From: a virus
Direction: 5' to 3' (one strand)
Virus record (IMG/VR): IMGVR_UViG_3300044645_003289
Coordinates: 1-20,349 of that record
Length of the DNA stretch: 20,349 bases
The notes under the pieces were generated by a model that ran no database searches, was not told the DNA's origin, and worked only from the letters and a program-made list of their open reading frames with translations. The translations under genes were made by a program, and so were the position numbers. This document shows positions 1-20,349 of the stretch, piece by piece (position 1 is the stretch's first letter; each line of letters begins with the position of its first letter).

Positions 1-374
1 TTATCACCCCTACTTTAGGAACACCGGCGTCTGGAACATTAACAAACTGCACTGGATTGCCTGTCTCTACCGGTATTTCTGGTCTTGCTACAGGTATTGC
101 AACATTTCTTGCAACGCCAACTAGCGCTAACTTAGCAGCCGCTGTAACCGATGAAACCGGTACCGGCTTGCTTGTTTTTAATAATTCACCTACATTTATC
201 ACCCCTGCTTTAGGAACACCGGCGTCTGGAACATTAACAAACTGCACTGGATTGCCTATCTCTACCGGCATTTCTGGCCTTGCTACAGGTATTGCAACAT
301 TTCTTGCAACGCCAACTAGCGCTAACTTAGCAGCCGCTGTAACCAATGAAACCGGTACTGGCTTGCTTGTTTTT
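1..374 (+). repeat. 195-bp in-frame tandem repeat in fibre gene
   Basis: Positions 1-179 and 196-374 align without gaps at a period of 195 bp (65 codons). They differ at only six positions, all transitions, and three of these change an amino acid (T/A, V/I, D/N). More copies may lie upstream of the window. The near identity suggests recent duplication or gene conversion, and such repeats allow copy-number change in the fibre shaft. Short-read assemblies can also collapse or expand them. Confidence 0.9.
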
Positions 375-818
375 GCAACGTCACCATCACTTACGACTCC
401 ATCTTTGGGTGTTGCTAGCGCGACATCAATTAATAAAGTTGCAATTACAGCACCAGCTACTAGTGCCACTTTAACCATTGCAGATGGTAAAACTCTTACT
501 GTATCTAATACTTTAACTTTTTCAGGTACGGATGCATCGTCGGTTGCATTCGGAGCTGGTGGCACTGTTGCTTATTTAGGTGCTAACAATGCCTTTACCG
601 GGGCAAATACATTTACAAATGCAACGGGACAAGTTTTTCGCCGGGCCGCAACACAGGATGGAATTGTTATCACTGGACGAGCGGGGGGTTCAGGTTCATT
701 TTCCGCTTCAATTACCCCTGCAACACTAACCGCTAATCAAACCGTGACATTGCCGGATGAAACTGGCACTGTTGCTACACAAGATTTTGCCACTGCAATT
801 GCAATTGCATTAGGATAA
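1..818 (+). CDS. Tail fibre protein, 5'-truncated by window edge
   Basis: The frame is already open at the window start (first complete codon at position 3), so the apparent TTG start at 57 is internal and the gene begins upstream. The visible part opens with two copies of a 65-residue repeat containing TPxLGTPASGTLTNCTGLP and SGLATGIATFLATPTSANLA. A Ser/Thr/Ala/Gly-rich beta-type region follows, with TIADGKTLTVSNTLTFSGTD, a motif common in tail fibres of large phages and cyanophages. The C-terminus has a TLPDETGTVATQD tail, also common in fibre proteins. It is the first of a series of fibre genes on the same strand, and the next starts 4 bp downstream. The role is inferred to be host-surface contact. 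The receptor is unknown. Confidence 0.8.
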   Translation, partial: ITPTLGTPASGTLTNCTGLPVSTGISGLATGIATFLATPTSANLAAAVTDETGTGLLVFNNSPTFITPALGTPASGTLTNCTGLPISTGISGLATGIATFLATPTSANLAAAVTNETGTGLLVFATSPSLTTPSLGVASATSINKVAITAPATSATLTIADGKTLTVSNTLTFSGTDASSVAFGAGGTVAYLGANNAFTGANTFTNATGQVFRRAATQDGIVITGRAGGSGSFSASITPATLTANQTVTLPDETGTVATQDFATAIAIALG

Positions 819-5323: not shown

Positions 5324-6571
5324 GTGAAAATTTCGCCCACTGGCATCAAATTAATTAAATCTTTCGAGGGACTAAGCCTCACCAGCTACCTCTGTCCTGT
5401 CGGTGTACTTACCATTGGCTACGGTCACACCGGAAACGTGCTTGCTGGAACAAAAATCACCGAGAAAGAAGCCGACGCACTTCTCAAGCAAGATCTCATT
5501 AAATTCGAGCAAGCAGTATTAAATTACGTCACCATTGATTTAAATCAAAATCAATTTGATGCACTTGTCTCCTTCTGTTTTAACGTCGGAACCCAGGCTT
5601 TTAAGGGTTCAACGTTAGTTAAACGTCTTAATAATGGAGAAAACCCTAATATTGTCGCTGCCGAAGAGCTGCCAAGGTGGAATAAAGGTGACGGAAAAGT
5701 CCTTGAGGGCTTGAGCCGCCGCCGTTCCGCAGAGGTTGAATTATTTTGCAGCGAAGCCCCGAAAGTAAAGGTTGGATTAATTGATATAACTTCTAAATTT
5801 AATACCTGGCTCAAAAAACGACTCGTTCCTTCCGTCGAGTTAGGTCGTGACGAAAAAGCCAATATTTACAAAGGCAGAACAATTCGAAATTGCTTTGTTA
5901 TTGATCGTAAGGACAAGCATAGCTACGTAGAAATGGGCTTCGGGCTTGGTAAGTGGTGGATCTACGACGATCACTGGGACGGACTTGTCACTAAGACAAC
6001 GATCCATCCTTACGCGATTGACGGTGATCTCCGTTATCTCCGTAACTTCCCATACTTTCATCAAAAGGATAACGGCCCTGAAGGCTGGCGCCAGTGTCAG
6101 ACGAGCAGTATTGCAATGTGTCTGAAGTACTTAGATACGCCCGGTATTAACGACGATACTGACTACTTGAAGATCGTTAATAAGTACGGAGACACCATTT
6201 ATCGCAACCCTCATTTTAAAGCCTTGGCAGAGTTAGGTGTATCCGCTAAGTTTACTCAAACTGCAGACTCGGATGACGTTAAAAAACAAATTGACTCGGG
6301 CCTCCCTGTTGTTGCCGGCATTCTTCATCATGGAACTGTTTCTGACCCTTCTGGTGGCGGCCACTTTGTGGTTATTACTGGTTATGGCCGGGATTATTGG
6401 CTAGTCCAAGACCCCTACGGTGAACAGGACCTGGTCAACGGTGGTTGGGCTTCAACCGGTGCCGTCGCCGGTCGCAATGTTCGCTACAGCTTCAAGAACT
6501 TAAACCCTCGATTCTTTGTTGGTGGGGGCGGCTCTGGCTGGTGCTGGTACGACTTTAAACGCTTAAAGTGA
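5324..6571 (+). CDS. Endolysin: GH24 muramidase fused to C39-like peptidase
   Basis: The gene starts at GTG and encodes 415 residues, long for a GH24 endolysin. Residues 1-145 form a GH24 lysozyme domain with LIKSFEG (E15), C24 and TIGYGHT (T30). The spacings +9 and +6 match a Glu-Cys-Thr triad in place of T4's Glu-Asp-Thr. The conserved NQNQFDALVSFCFNVG and SRRRSAEVELF segments are also present. A linker or SH3-like stretch follows (about 150-230). Residues 240-415 look like a C39-type papain-fold peptidase, with QCQTSS (C258), GGGHFVVITGY (H347) and QDPYGE (D363). The enzyme is inferred to cut both glycan strands and peptide bonds of peptidoglycan at lysis. No signal peptide is seen, so it depends on a holin. 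Confidence 0.88.
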   Translation: MKISPTGIKLIKSFEGLSLTSYLCPVGVLTIGYGHTGNVLAGTKITEKEADALLKQDLIKFEQAVLNYVTIDLNQNQFDALVSFCFNVGTQAFKGSTLVKRLNNGENPNIVAAEELPRWNKGDGKVLEGLSRRRSAEVELFCSEAPKVKVGLIDITSKFNTWLKKRLVPSVELGRDEKANIYKGRTIRNCFVIDRKDKHSYVEMGFGLGKWWIYDDHWDGLVTKTTIHPYAIDGDLRYLRNFPYFHQKDNGPEGWRQCQTSSIAMCLKYLDTPGINDDTDYLKIVNKYGDTIYRNPHFKALAELGVSAKFTQTADSDDVKKQIDSGLPVVAGILHHGTVSDPSGGGHFVVITGYGRDYWLVQDPYGEQDLVNGGWASTGAVAGRNVRYSFKNLNPRFFVGGGGSGWCWYDFKRLK

Positions 6572-7476: not shown

Positions 7477-7551
7477 TCGGAGTGGAAGGATTCAAACCTT
7501 CGGCCTGTCGCTCCCAAAGCGACCGCTCTAATCAAGCTGAGCTACACCCCG
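7477..7551 (-). tRNA. trnP(UGG): tRNA-Pro (anticodon TGG)
   Basis: Read on the minus strand, the 75 nt fold into a full cloverleaf. The acceptor stem is CGGGGTG/CACTCCG with one G-U pair and discriminator A. The D stem is GCTC/GAGC, the anticodon stem GTCGC/GCGAC with loop TTTGGGA, and the T arm GAAGG-TTTGAAT-CCTTC. The anticodon TGG reads CCA proline codons. CCA is not encoded at the 3' end and must be added by the host. The 5' end touches the encoded CCA of the tRNA-Leu gene, so the two are probably cut from one transcript. Confidence 0.95.
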
Positions 7552-7637
7552 TGGTAGGAACGGTGGGACTTGAACCCACAAGGTCAAAGACCAACGCATT
7601 TTAAGTGCGCAGCGTATCCCGATTCCGCCACGTTCCC
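7552..7637 (-). tRNA. trnL(UAA): tRNA-Leu (anticodon TAA) with encoded CCA
   Basis: Read on the minus strand, the acceptor stem is GGGAACG/CGTTCCT with a G-U first pair, followed by A73 and an encoded CCA (7554-7552). The anticodon stem GCGCA/TGCGT carries loop CTTAAAA with anticodon TAA, reading UUA leucine codons. The long variable arm (GGTC-TTT-GACC) is typical of class II tRNA-Leu. The T arm is GTGGG-TTCAAGT-CCCAC. The gene lies upstream of tRNA-Pro in the same orientation with no spacer. Confidence 0.95.
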
Positions 7638-8119: not shown

Positions 8120-8267
8120 CGGCAAAGAGTTTCTGGATGGCTACGTAGAAAAAGCCATTCAGGAGCTTCAGCGGGCGCGAATCCCTTCAGGTTTCCAGCG
8201 CTTGGCGCAAGGAGAAGAGGCAACTGATATTAAAACTAAAGCGATGAATCGAGAGATTATCGTTTGA
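8088..8267 (+). CDS. 59-aa small ORF, unknown function
   Basis: This short frame starts at an ATG inside the end of the HNH gene and stops 2 nt before the next ATG. It fills a stretch that would otherwise be empty in a tightly packed region. The protein begins MISTSAGSRPNGKEFLDGY, continues with VEKAIQELQRARIPSGFQRL and ends in MNREIIV. It looks like a single amphipathic helix with a charged tail. No strong Shine-Dalgarno precedes the ATG. The family is not recognised. The fit with its neighbours and the protein-like composition support it as real. Confidence 0.5.
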   Translation: MISTSAGSRPNGKEFLDGYVEKAIQELQRARIPSGFQRLAQGEEATDIKTKAMNREIIV

Positions 8268-8269
8268 TC

Positions 8270-8569
8270 ATGTCTGACCGAGCGAAGGCCAAGCGGCTGG
8301 CTGTTGAACGGCTGAAATGTAACAAGCCCGTACGAACACCAGATCATCCGACAAAATCACACGTTGTTCGAGCGTGTGGTGATGATGTACCTGGAGGAGA
8401 AAAGATAATTAGATTCGGTGAACAAGGAGCTGAAACGGCTGGTAAACCTAAAGAAGGTGAATCGGAAAGAATGAAGAAAAAACGTGCTAGTTTTAAAGCT
8501 AGGCACGCAAAAAATATCGCAAAAGGTAAAGGCTCAGCCGCATATTGGGCCGACAAAGTTAAGTGGTAA
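8270..8569 (+). CDS. Small basic conserved viral protein, unknown function
   Basis: The ATG at 8270 is preferred to a TTG at 8264. It lies 2 nt after the preceding stop and gives 99 residues. The protein is strongly basic and has a C-terminal block of EKIIRFGEQG, then KKKRASFKARHAKNIAKGKG and AYWADKVKW. This combination (IRFGxQG, SFxARHxKNIxKGK, AYWAxKVKW) is familiar from a conserved family in tailed phages and some large DNA viruses. It has no settled function that I can name. The high Lys/Arg content makes nucleic-acid binding plausible. The next gene begins 5 bp downstream. Confidence 0.75.
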   Translation: MSDRAKAKRLAVERLKCNKPVRTPDHPTKSHVVRACGDDVPGGEKIIRFGEQGAETAGKPKEGESERMKKKRASFKARHAKNIAKGKGSAAYWADKVKW

Positions 8570-8574
8570 AACCC

Positions 8575-9039
8575 ATGGCAAAACCCCAAACAAACAAGAC
8601 AAGCGCCTGCTACTCCCACCTGGTTCAGTGCCTGCGTGATTCGATGCACCTGTATCAGCAAACCCTGCTTGTCCATTGGGGTTTGATGGGTAGCAAGTTT
8701 TACCAAATCCATACGCTGACTCAAATGATTTACGAAGAGATGCAGGAAGCTCTCGACGTAATCGCGGAACATATCCGCTCTCTGGACATTGCGACGCCCA
8801 AGACCGTCGAAGACCTGACCTATTCCAACCTCCCCTCCGTCCCTCTGGAAGACTGCTTCAAGCAAGAGGTGATCATCAGCCAGTTGGCAGCCAATCAAAA
8901 CGCACTGGCTGACCGCTTCCAGGATTTAGCAGCCATGGCTGAGACCCTTGGCGATCAACTGACGCTTGACTTAGCTGTTGAGCGTGGGCGGGTCCACAAG
9001 AAGTTCCAGTGGCTTCTCAAAGCCAACCTGGACGCCTAG
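8575..9039 (+). CDS. dps: Dps-like ferritin-family protein
   Basis: The ATG at 8575 is chosen over an upstream in-frame GTG inside the previous gene, giving 154 residues, a normal Dps length. It has the Dps core LVHWGLMGSKFYQIHTLTQM followed by EEMQEALDVIAEHIRSLD. The inter-subunit ferroxidase ligands of Dps are all present at correct spacing: H34, H46 (+12), D61 (+27) and E65 (+31). The C-terminus (LAVERGRVHKKFQWLLKA) fits the last helix. Dps proteins form 12-mers that oxidise and store iron, and many bind DNA. In a phage it may protect DNA from host photosynthetic oxidants or handle iron, which is inference. An N-terminal Lys-rich DNA-binding tail is short at best. Confidence 0.85.
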   Translation: MAKPQTNKTSACYSHLVQCLRDSMHLYQQTLLVHWGLMGSKFYQIHTLTQMIYEEMQEALDVIAEHIRSLDIATPKTVEDLTYSNLPSVPLEDCFKQEVIISQLAANQNALADRFQDLAAMAETLGDQLTLDLAVERGRVHKKFQWLLKANLDA

Positions 9040-9062: not shown

Positions 9063-9407
9063 ATGGGTTTCTTTGAGGGTTACCAGCAGACGCTGGTACA
9101 GAACTTTCCTGAGCTTACAGCCCCCGGTTTGACCGATACAATCGACGTATTGGTGGCCAATTACCTGTCGACCCGCAACTACACGCTGAGTGCGACCGTA
9201 ACCAACATCAACACCTCTGTTGTGGTACGCCTTGATGGCAGCATTGATGGTATTAATTATGGTCCGCTAATCTCAAACACAATTATTGAGAACGGAACTT
9301 ATCTCTATTACGTTAACGGATTTCCGGTTGGTCATTTACGCGCTAATTTTTATCACGAAACCGGCGGCACTGATGCCGTCGTTAAATTTAGTATTGCAGC
9401 CAACTAA
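9063..9407 (+). CDS. Small beta-rich protein, probably structural
   Basis: This 114-residue protein is dominated by alternating hydrophobic and Thr/Asn residues typical of beta-sandwiches: VTNINTSVVVRLDGSIDGIN, then ENGTYLYYVNGFPVGHLRAN and DAVVKFSIAAN. There are no catalytic motifs, membrane segments or signal peptide. Such small beta proteins in phages are often capsid decorations or tail accessories, but I recognise no named family. It ends in a 4-bp convergent overlap with the 2OG oxygenase gene on the opposite strand. Confidence 0.6.
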   Translation: MGFFEGYQQTLVQNFPELTAPGLTDTIDVLVANYLSTRNYTLSATVTNINTSVVVRLDGSIDGINYGPLISNTIIENGTYLYYVNGFPVGHLRANFYHETGGTDAVVKFSIAAN

Positions 9408-10198
9408 ATCAAGCTCCAGCTGCGGAACCACTTAGTAATTACATATTTGTTTCCACTGAGGGGCGGGCACGCCTCATGCATAGTTTTTAGATTGGGTAGT
9501 CCATTTTTATAGAGATTATTCCAGACGACCAGCATTCCCTGTTTGGGCTTTACATGAAGATTTAGGTGCTTGAAATACGTTTCACCACCCTCTTCAACAT
9601 CATTGAGATAGACCATAGTGGTCCAAGTTCGCTGCCCCATCCATTCGCAGTAAATTTTGTATTCCTTTGTGGTGGGCATGAAGAAGTCCCAGTGCTCTTT
9701 ATAGTATTGACCAGGCTCATATTTTTGTGCTTGCATAATCTCACCGAGAAAACTATAGAGCCCTAAAGTGTCTACAATTCTCCTGTCTAGCTCCAGGTAA
9801 AGAGGGTCGTCAAAGTAGTGCAGGTCTGAGGTTTGGCTAGTTCTGTAGTCTGAAACCAAGCATGAATCTGCGTCATCGGAGACAGTTGAAGGTCTCAAGC
9901 GAGTATCAATGAGCCTTATCAAGGCCTCACATTCATCTTTGGTTAAAATGTTGTCGTAAGTATAAATTTGAGTAAACGGATAAAAGATCCGATTCCCCGT
10001 TTTGGTGATCTTGGCGCCGTGAAAATCTTTGTAATTAATATTGGACGGCCGGCTTCTAAATGAGCACAGGTGGATGACCTGATCAATTTCGCCATCCCCC
10101 AGTCCATGGCGCTCCCTCATGGTCCTAATCAGTTGCGTCCTACTCACGCCACCAACCGCTGATTTCATAAATTCCGCGACGAGTTGGTTGCTGATCAT
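9404..10198 (-). CDS. 2-oxoglutarate/Fe(II)-dependent oxygenase (prolyl 4-hydroxylase type)
   Basis: The 264-residue protein has the double-stranded beta-helix oxygenase fold at about residues 75-262. The iron ligands are H169 and D171 (KEHWDFF) and H241 (TMHEACPP), and K251 ten residues later is in the 2-oxoglutarate-binding position. Flanking motifs YRTSQTSDL, QAQKYEPGQYYKEHWDFF, YLNDVEEGGETYF and KYVITKWFRS match the P4H alpha-subunit family. Residues 1-50 form a separate helical N-terminus of unknown role. Enzymes of this type are frequent in cyanophages. The substrate, which could be a protein residue or a nucleobase, cannot be told from sequence. It is the first minus-strand protein gene of the window. 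Confidence 0.92.
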   Translation of the reverse strand: MISNQLVAEFMKSAVGGVSRTQLIRTMRERHGLGDGEIDQVIHLCSFRSRPSNINYKDFHGAKITKTGNRIFYPFTQIYTYDNILTKDECEALIRLIDTRLRPSTVSDDADSCLVSDYRTSQTSDLHYFDDPLYLELDRRIVDTLGLYSFLGEIMQAQKYEPGQYYKEHWDFFMPTTKEYKIYCEWMGQRTWTTMVYLNDVEEGGETYFKHLNLHVKPKQGMLVVWNNLYKNGLPNLKTMHEACPPLSGNKYVITKWFRSWSLI

Positions 10199-10760: not shown

Positions 10761-11147
10761 ATGGCCACCCGCACGATCAAAGGTACCCTCGACACGTTCC
10801 AGGTTGACAGCGGTTCCGACGTCACCTATCTGGGCAACACCTCTGCCGGTTCCACTGGTGGTCTGAACATCCGTGGATTCCGGGTGAACCCTGGCACCAC
10901 TGGTGACATCATCGTCAAACTGGACACGACCAGCGGTGTTAACACCATGGAGATCTTCCAAGAGGACGCGTACACCGCTGGTAATGCTCCGACTGGCTAC
11001 ACCAAGTACAGCAATATTGCGAAGAACGGTTCTGGTAAGGGCGCTGTGGCCGTGACCGTGACCAACGCTGCCAAAGACTACGTGGTGCTGCTAACTTTGG
11101 ATGGCTATTCTGAAGTTTCCTACACTGGCAGCGTCGTCGTCCCTTAA
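10761..11147 (+). CDS. Small beta-sandwich protein, probably virion structural
   Basis: This 128-residue protein starts 5 bp after the NblA-like stop. It is rich in Gly, Thr, Ser and Val, with alternating strands: IKGTLDTFQVDSGSDVTYLG, then RGFRVNPGTTGDIIVKLDTT and AVAVTVTNAAKDYVVLLTLD. The arrangement resembles PPC-like or immunoglobulin-like beta-sandwiches found on phage particles. No catalytic motif or signal peptide is visible. Its last 47 bp overlap the start of the next gene in another frame. A capsid decoration or fibre accessory role is plausible but not shown. Confidence 0.6.
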   Translation: MATRTIKGTLDTFQVDSGSDVTYLGNTSAGSTGGLNIRGFRVNPGTTGDIIVKLDTTSGVNTMEIFQEDAYTAGNAPTGYTKYSNIAKNGSGKGAVAVTVTNAAKDYVVLLTLDGYSEVSYTGSVVVP

Positions 11148-11871
11148 GAATACTGAAGATTGGAGTGAGTACCCGCTGCTCACTCCGAAAGGAGTTGAAC
11201 TAATTAAACGCCACACGCAGCCCCGTACCAATTTAGGTATGGGGCGTTTTGGTTCATACAAAGAATACGGAGAGGACATCTGGCGCATTGGATACGGTAG
11301 CAAGAAAATAAACAAGCACTGGGTTGGATACCACGAAGTCGCGACTCAAAAGCAGATTGAAGAGCAGCTAATCGAGGATCTAAAAGAATTTACCAAACAG
11401 ATCGAACCGTATATTTTTGTGCCTCTAAACAAGAACCGAAAGGCGGCCATCCTGTCATTTGCCCACAACCTAGGGGTGACGGGCTTCAAGGAATCACGTC
11501 TGCTGAGGCTGATCAACTCTCACGCCAGCAAAAAAGACATCATCCGTGAGTGGAGCCCATACATCAATGGAATGTGGCGTTCTGGTGGTGAATCGATTAT
11601 CAACCGAAGGCGAGCAGAGCTGGATACGTTTTTAGCTCCAGACAAGGAGATCCCTACCTTTACAGAACACAATTGCAAACTCAAAGTTTGCCTGTTGAAC
11701 CTACCCGAGACTTACACGGGAGTCCATAATCAGATCAAGGCGATTGAGTATCTGGAAGGAAAGATACTGAGCTGGGATCCGTCTGGACATGCTCTGAAGC
11801 ACTTTTTCCGTCTTTGGAATGAGAAACCCACCGGTCTAGGATCTCCGCCGCGTCCGGGGATAGATACTTGA
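11101..11871 (+). CDS. GH24-like lysozyme homologue lacking usual catalytic residues
   Basis: The ATG at 11101 lies inside the preceding gene. It is the only start before the domain, giving 256 residues. Residues 26-178 follow the GH24 order: LLTPKGVELIKRHTQPR, DIWRIGYGSKK, NKNRKAAILSFAHNLGVTGF and RRRAELDTF. Where active enzymes have FEG, this protein has HTQ (T39 in place of the catalytic Glu), and the TIGYG Thr is Arg (R62). It may be an inactive wall-binding homologue, or may use other acids such as those in the YKEYGED stretch. The C-terminal 75 residues (with SWDPSGHALKHFFRLWNEKP) match no known domain. The last 137 bp are antisense to another ORF. Confidence 0.7.
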   Translation: MAILKFPTLAASSSLKNTEDWSEYPLLTPKGVELIKRHTQPRTNLGMGRFGSYKEYGEDIWRIGYGSKKINKHWVGYHEVATQKQIEEQLIEDLKEFTKQIEPYIFVPLNKNRKAAILSFAHNLGVTGFKESRLLRLINSHASKKDIIREWSPYINGMWRSGGESIINRRRAELDTFLAPDKEIPTFTEHNCKLKVCLLNLPETYTGVHNQIKAIEYLEGKILSWDPSGHALKHFFRLWNEKPTGLGSPPRPGIDT

Positions 11872-19515: not shown

Positions 19516-20349
19516 ATGTCTCAGACGAAGGCACAATTAGTTTCTGGTTTAAATCTCAACCCTTCTGCACCCGCAACGGCGTTGCAGATTGATGCAAGTG
19601 GAAATATTAATTTAGACAGCAATACGCTCTACGTTGATGCTGCCAATAACAGGGTAGGTCTGGGGACTAGTAGCCCTGGATCTCGGTTAACGGTTAACAG
19701 AGTCAACTTTGCAAACGCCAGCGCTACTGGCTCCACAACGCTAAACAATGCTGGAATCACAGTTGAAGCAGCTACGGATACCAATAATCGTTTAATGTTT
19801 GGTATTGGCTCCACCGGTGGCTCACCGTGGATTCAAGCACAAAACACTTCAAGCAACGCCACCCAATCCTTAATTCTTAATCCTGTCGGAGGCAACGTAG
19901 GGATTGGCACTACTAGTCCTGCTGATGGATTGGGCTACGGCACGGCTTTAGATATTCGAGGTAGCGGAACTGGCAATGGTGGCGTTGTCTATCTTCGTAA
20001 CTCGGATGCGTCTGTAACCGGATTTGTTGCTGCTTTTGGCGATGGTCGGATGGATTTAGGTACCAGCACAAATCATCCGCTTAAGTTCATTACAAATAGC
20101 AACGAAAGAGCACGAATCGACACGTCGGGACGCCTGTTAGTTGGCACGTCTACGAGTCCTAGTAGCGGCTTTGGTCAATATGCAAAACTCGTAGTTCAAG
20201 GTCAGCCTGCTGATGCAACAGCTGGCGGTAACTTTTCAATTCAAAGAGGAGAAGCTGCTGCTGGCGGCAACATCACCTCTGGAGAAGGAATTGGAAACAT
20301 TAGCTGGAATGACAATGCTGGAAATACGTTTGGTTTAATCGGTTGCGAG
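19516..20349 (+). CDS. Tail fibre protein, 3'-truncated by window edge
   Basis: An ATG about 8 bp after AGAAAGG opens a frame with no stop to the window end (278 codons seen). It begins MSQTKAQLVSGLNLNPSAPA and ALQIDASGNINLDSNTLYVD, then VGLGTSSPGSRLTV. Shaft repeats include GGNVGIGTTSPADGL near residue 126 and SGRLLVGTSTSPSSGFG near residue 204. Motifs ERARIDTSG and IGNISWNDN are of the type that precedes tip domains in other fibres. It shares a 25-bp identical stretch with the fibre gene at 3019-4527. It is inferred to be another host-recognition fibre, and the tip is missing from the window. Confidence 0.85.
   Translation, partial: MSQTKAQLVSGLNLNPSAPATALQIDASGNINLDSNTLYVDAANNRVGLGTSSPGSRLTVNRVNFANASATGSTTLNNAGITVEAATDTNNRLMFGIGSTGGSPWIQAQNTSSNATQSLILNPVGGNVGIGTTSPADGLGYGTALDIRGSGTGNGGVVYLRNSDASVTGFVAAFGDGRMDLGTSTNHPLKFITNSNERARIDTSGRLLVGTSTSPSSGFGQYAKLVVQGQPADATAGGNFSIQRGEAAAGGNITSGEGIGNISWNDNAGNTFGLIGCE

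Follow-up and report, generated by a model that had tools for sequence, protein, structure and literature searches.

Dps-family mini-ferritins have been described in phages of several kinds. Lactobacillus phages of the Iacchus group carry a Dps gene for which a role in oxidative stress has been proposed (PMC6669764), and Dps is also carried by the Gratiaviridae, where the authors proposed oxidative-stress tolerance (PMC8008677). Both groups have hosts other than that of the phage considered here, and for the Gratiaviridae the comparison draws on the published description. Among cyanophages, Dps-family genes are annotated in S-EIVl, which belongs to the same lineage as our phage and encodes a DNA-binding ferritin-like protein (AHV82153.1), and in S-SRM01, a 241-kb freshwater Synechococcus phage of the Kyanoviridae. 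A discussion of Dps in cyanophages was not found in a search of open-access papers. Together with the abundance of such genes in IMG/VR, these cases do not bear out the impression, given in the initial annotation of the DNA analyzed here, that phage Dps genes are few. Phage Dps as such is known; what our analysis adds is a large cyanophage Dps family with recurrent replacement of one iron-site residue.

The canonical Dps ferroxidase centre is formed by five ligands, two histidines and an Asp or Glu from one subunit and an Asp and a Glu from the other (PMC6675082, PMC10299050), in one protein His38, His50, Glu54, Asp65 and Glu69 (PMC10299050). The third of these, position 67 in E. coli, acts on site B via a water (PMC6675082). 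In Dps4 of Nostoc punctiforme, which has a His-type ferroxidase centre, this position is taken by an Asn that is no ligand, and the protein oxidises Fe(II) with O2 while giving no sign of H2O2 use (PMC6675082).

The gene studied here lies in an IMG/VR virus record of 20,349 bases, the whole of which is referred to as the window (Table 1). Its reading frame is intact, with an ATG at 8575 and a stop codon ending at 9039, and an in-frame GTG is present upstream at 8563. The profile search suggested along with the initial annotation places the protein inside the ferritin/Dps superfamily: Pfam Ferritin PF00210 matches at 2.8e-12 (47.2 bits, above the curated cut-off of 24.5), PHROG 3636 at 1.7e-18 and the NCBIfam Dps model NF006975 at 1.8e-12 (47.7 bits, under the equivalog cut-off of 114). 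The strongest sequence matches in the PDB are Dps-family chains, the best being PA0962 of Pseudomonas aeruginosa (8ff9, 6e-16) at about 30% identity. A single-chain structure model built from 37 aligned natural sequences has a mean pLDDT of 93.6 and helices at residues 11–36, 42–69, 78–81, 97–125 and 128–149; the predicted fold is a bundle of four long helices in which 78–81 forms the short BC helix, and a C-terminal fifth helix is absent. Foldseek and VIA-align both place Dps structures first for this model (Z about 20, rmsd about 2), with PA0962 again as the top Foldseek match, so that profiles and predicted fold agree with the assignment to Dps made initially for this interval. PADLOC gave only a weak match of 39 residues, which was disregarded. 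An overlapping antisense reading frame (8344–8898, minus strand, 184 aa) was rejected as a coding gene because the family match and the selection are found in the plus frame; its apparent match to S-EIVl is the mirror of the adjoining c11 gene.

Table 1. Position of the Dps gene, its iron-site codons and neighbouring genes in the window
Feature	Position	Strand	Remarks
c11, PHROG 7595 protein, left edge of the cargo slot	8264..8569	+	S-EIVl protein at about 67% identity
Dps-family mini-ferritin, 154 aa	8575..9039	+	family profiles, predicted fold, purifying selection
H34 and W35 codons (ferroxidase-site His, conserved Trp)	8674..8679	+	unchanged in all 65 phage and all 26 cellular relatives
H46 codon (second ferroxidase-site His)	8710..8712	+	invariant in relatives
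Q50 codon CAA (site B, E. coli position 67)	8722..8724	+	Glu, Gln or Gly among relatives, at least 7 changes
D61 codon (site-A Asp)	8755..8757	+	invariant in relatives
E65 (bridging Glu) and H66 codons	8767..8772	+	E65 unchanged in relatives; H66 in all 65 phage rows
c4, 114-aa protein without family match, often follows Dps, sometimes duplicated	9063..9407	+	
2OG-Fe(II) oxygenase, right edge of the cargo slot	9404..10198	-	profile match 9.6e-16
NblA-like protein of 71 aa, conserved member of the phage block	10540..10755	+	hhalign, NCBIfam NblA

No terminase (TerL) gene was seen in the 20,349-base window. G016, an 84-kb relative that shares the gene block of the window, encodes a TerL with 64% identity to its counterpart in Synechococcus phage S-EIVl; the matches listed after it are at about 25%. 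Proteins of the window itself resemble S-EIVl proteins with up to 51% identity over 161 residues. Judged by these similarities, the window genome belongs with the S-EIVl-like cyanophages. psbA (PF00124) was absent from the 22 contigs searched, and the host call is therefore not backed by a photosystem gene. The TerL of G016, the matches of window proteins to S-EIVl and the NblA-like gene make a cyanobacterial host, probably a picocyanobacterium, well supported, in line with the photosynthetic host assumed earlier.

The gene order of the block is lysozyme, small genes, HNH, c6, c11, Dps, c4, 2OG oxygenase (on the opposite strand), NblA-like gene, c8 and lysozyme. The same Dps gene is found in the same slot across independent contigs, and in one group (L018–L022) it lies ahead of c11. 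Where c11 and the 2OG gene are both present, Dps fills the slot between them in 8 loci, against 29 loci in which it is absent, and since the slot is mostly empty Dps has to be regarded as optional cargo within a conserved block, its function being either dispensable or met otherwise in most loci.

The NblA-like gene pointed out in the initial annotation is indeed found about 1.5 kb downstream. Its product aligns with NblA of S. elongatus in hhalign (95%, E 2.5e-8), the reference being a sequence that Pfam recognises as NblA (3e-15). The NCBIfam NblA model NF045916 matches at 1.8e-4, under its cut-off, and Pfam PF04485 gives no match for the window copy and 0.0016 for the best of its relatives, which are encoded in at least 330 viral stretches. 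Starting from the best 80 of these 330 stretches, 12 of the 57 NblA-like loci with at least 4.5 kb of upstream sequence hold Dps, a lower bound because Dps may lie further off; on contig 3300042879_004902 the two genes are about 10 kb apart (loci L100 and L148). The proximity of the 2OG-Fe(II) oxygenase and the NblA-like gene, both within 1.5 kb, would suit a Dps that serves as an iron store during infection, capturing iron from dismantled photosynthetic complexes for reuse, e.g. by the adjoining oxygenase, or for export in virions. Both neighbours are, however, widespread without Dps, so that there is no strict coupling, and with the NblA-like gene core to the block and Dps optional their proximity is weak evidence of a shared function. 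In addition, the phycobilisomes targeted by NblA contain no iron, and we therefore consider a role as iron store unlikely.

Relatives of this Dps type are not rare. The search of viral genomes for homologues that had been proposed as a check returned 21 loci at first and then at least 150 viral stretches encoding Dps relatives. When a recent acquisition from the host was considered, a close cellular relative was not found in a short-pattern scan that left out cyanobacterial genomes, the best match, among mostly alphaproteobacterial ones, having 36% identity. In nine Dps pairs with measurable dS, dN/dS was 0.02–0.10, and three more distant pairs were saturated; the window gene is under strong purifying selection. 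The patchy presence of Dps might suggest a neutral passenger or an assembly artefact with no functional phage gene behind it, yet the same neighbourhood recurs in many independent contigs and dN/dS is well below 1. Both observations contradict such an explanation, which we regard as extremely improbable. The window gene is a genuine, well-preserved Dps, and the intact reading frame, the low dN/dS and the invariant residues are consistent with the earlier view that it is probably active and not a remnant.

The residues H34, H46, D61 and E65 are arranged as H-x11-H-x14-D-x3-E, which is the family spacing, with W35 following the first His, and none of the five varies among the 65 phage relatives or the 26 cellular ones. 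The initial annotation had spoken of all four Dps iron ligands. These four stand, but the fifth canonical ligand, an Asp or Glu four residues after the second His in site B, is replaced by Gln50, which aligns with Glu54 of the published list (PMC10299050) and with E. coli position 67. Because Gln50 sits at the Asp/Glu position, the iron site comprises four of five ligands and not the full set. The residue following the bridging Glu differs as well, being His in 65 of 65 phage rows and Arg in all cellular rows (26/26 and 33/33); a role for this Arg was not found in the open-access literature. PA0962, the closest structure, has Glu at position 67 and Arg after the bridging Glu, where the window protein has Gln and His.

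Position 50 is variable within the family. The 65 phage relatives have Glu (34), Gln (26) or Gly (5), four further loci of the window type have Asn, and at least 7 changes are counted on a family tree built without that column. Glu and Gln are encoded by GAA/CAA or GAG/CAG, and the group has switched repeatedly between the two residues. All 26 cellular relatives have Glu, although these were found by patterns, one of which admitted only E, Q or G. Among 33 Dps proteins of Pseudomonadota found by similarity only, the position equivalent to 67 is occupied by Glu in 28, Asp in 1 and Met in 4, i.e. a non-acidic residue occurs in cells too. Together with the Asn of Nostoc Dps4, these four Met-containing proteins indicate that the missing fifth ligand is not decisive against membership in the Dps family. 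The window protein is likely to be active despite Gln50, by analogy with Dps4, which still oxidises iron with O2 with Asn at this position. Dps4 is, however, no clean precedent because it differs elsewhere too, its ligands including His78 and His164, whereas the phage protein retains Asp at 78 (D61).

Taking together the family assignment, the predicted fold, the conserved residues, the purifying selection, the phage context and the affinity to cyanophages of cyanobacteria, we consider it reasonably probable that the gene encodes a functional Dps mini-ferritin, an optional cargo of S-EIVl-like cyanophages which oxidises and stores iron and limits Fenton damage. By analogy with the family, the protein would assemble as a 12-mer, and Fe(II) would be expected to bind where two chains form a dimer, held by H34 and H46 from the first and by D61 and E65 from its partner. 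The iron would be oxidised with H2O2 and/or O2 and stored in the ferric form, and removal of Fe(II) and of peroxide or O2 might protect both the phage DNA and the photosynthetic cell, presumably to the benefit of the phage, while virions are produced in an illuminated, oxygen-evolving cell. Gln50, with which the site-B carboxylate is lost, would probably weaken the second iron site or shift the oxidant preference, with activity being kept. Two sequence features speak against a functional protein, namely Gln50, which breaks the canonical five-ligand site, and the His that follows the bridging Glu in place of a conserved Arg. If the protein is active, phages of picocyanobacteria would be seen to carry, commonly and in addition to the well-known photosynthesis genes, cargo for the control of iron and reactive oxygen.

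Dps proteins are known for DNA binding, a property that is not universal in the family, and the cage might mainly coat DNA, shielding or condensing the phage genome, e.g. against nucleases, with the ferroxidase activity being secondary. The tail preceding helix A, which starts at residue 11, has the sequence MAKPQTNKTSA with two Lys and a net charge of +2, but it is short and the protein as a whole is acidic (net charge -6, pI 5.4). Furthermore, the strict conservation of the catalytic residues would be unexpected if DNA binding alone were important, which makes a predominantly DNA-coating role unlikely. The changes in the dimer region that are specific to the phage clade (the Q50 class and H66) could also point towards mixed cages with subunits of the host Dps, whose altered activity would modify or block the iron and stress handling of the host. 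With identities of about 20–36% to the cellular Dps proteins found, mixed assembly is unlikely, and we give this suggestion very little credence.

Two further cyanophage Dps types resemble the window protein at site B. AHV82153.1 of S-EIVl shares the spacing of His, His, Asp and Glu and has Gly at the position equivalent to 67, non-acidic like Gln50. It is only 31% identical to the window Dps over 80 residues and its gene adjoins a sulfate adenylyltransferase gene, a place in the genome unlike that of the window gene, suggesting separate acquisition or strong divergence. Only 4 loci of this type pass the motif, with Gly or Lys at this position, a weak count since one search pattern fixed Gly. 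The Dps of S-SRM01, which is 28.8% identical to that of the window and has other neighbours, also has Gly at this position, and Glu-His replaces Glu-Arg, as is also the case in the S-SRM01-type copies inspected. Gly is found four residues after the second His in 80 of 80 S-SRM01-type loci read, the search patterns having left this position free. The Dps copies of Lactobacillus, Listeria and Bacteroides phages, including those of Iacchus and of Bacteroides phage BS162P1, retain Asp or Glu. Because of long branches, the tree placement of these Dps proteins from S-EIVl, S-SRM01, Lactobacillus phages and further phages was distrusted.

The loss of the acidic site-B ligand in at least three cyanophage Dps groups (Q, G, N or K) might reflect a shared adaptation to the oxygen-evolving cell, e.g. 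a shift of oxidant from H2O2 to O2 or an easy release of iron, an idea that we put forward as doubtful. As Glu and Gln alternate between close natural relatives, the window-type family provides a ready experiment on the role of the site-B ligand in Dps.

The S-EIVl-type Dps-like family (L221–L270) is encoded in at least 50 viral stretches, and in the copies read His-Leu or His-Phe replaces His-Trp; the S-SRM01 type (L271–L350) is encoded in at least 292. A promoter and terminator scan of the window gave numbers near chance and was not used. Elsewhere in the window, a pair of neighbouring tRNA genes for Pro (TGG) and Leu (TAA) on the minus strand (7477–7637) separates the lysis genes from the Dps block. 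Two phage lysozyme genes are present on the plus strand (5324–6571 and 11101–11871), the first of them fused to a C39-like peptidase domain, and repetitive tail-fibre-like proteins are encoded at both ends of the window (3–818 and 19516–20349).
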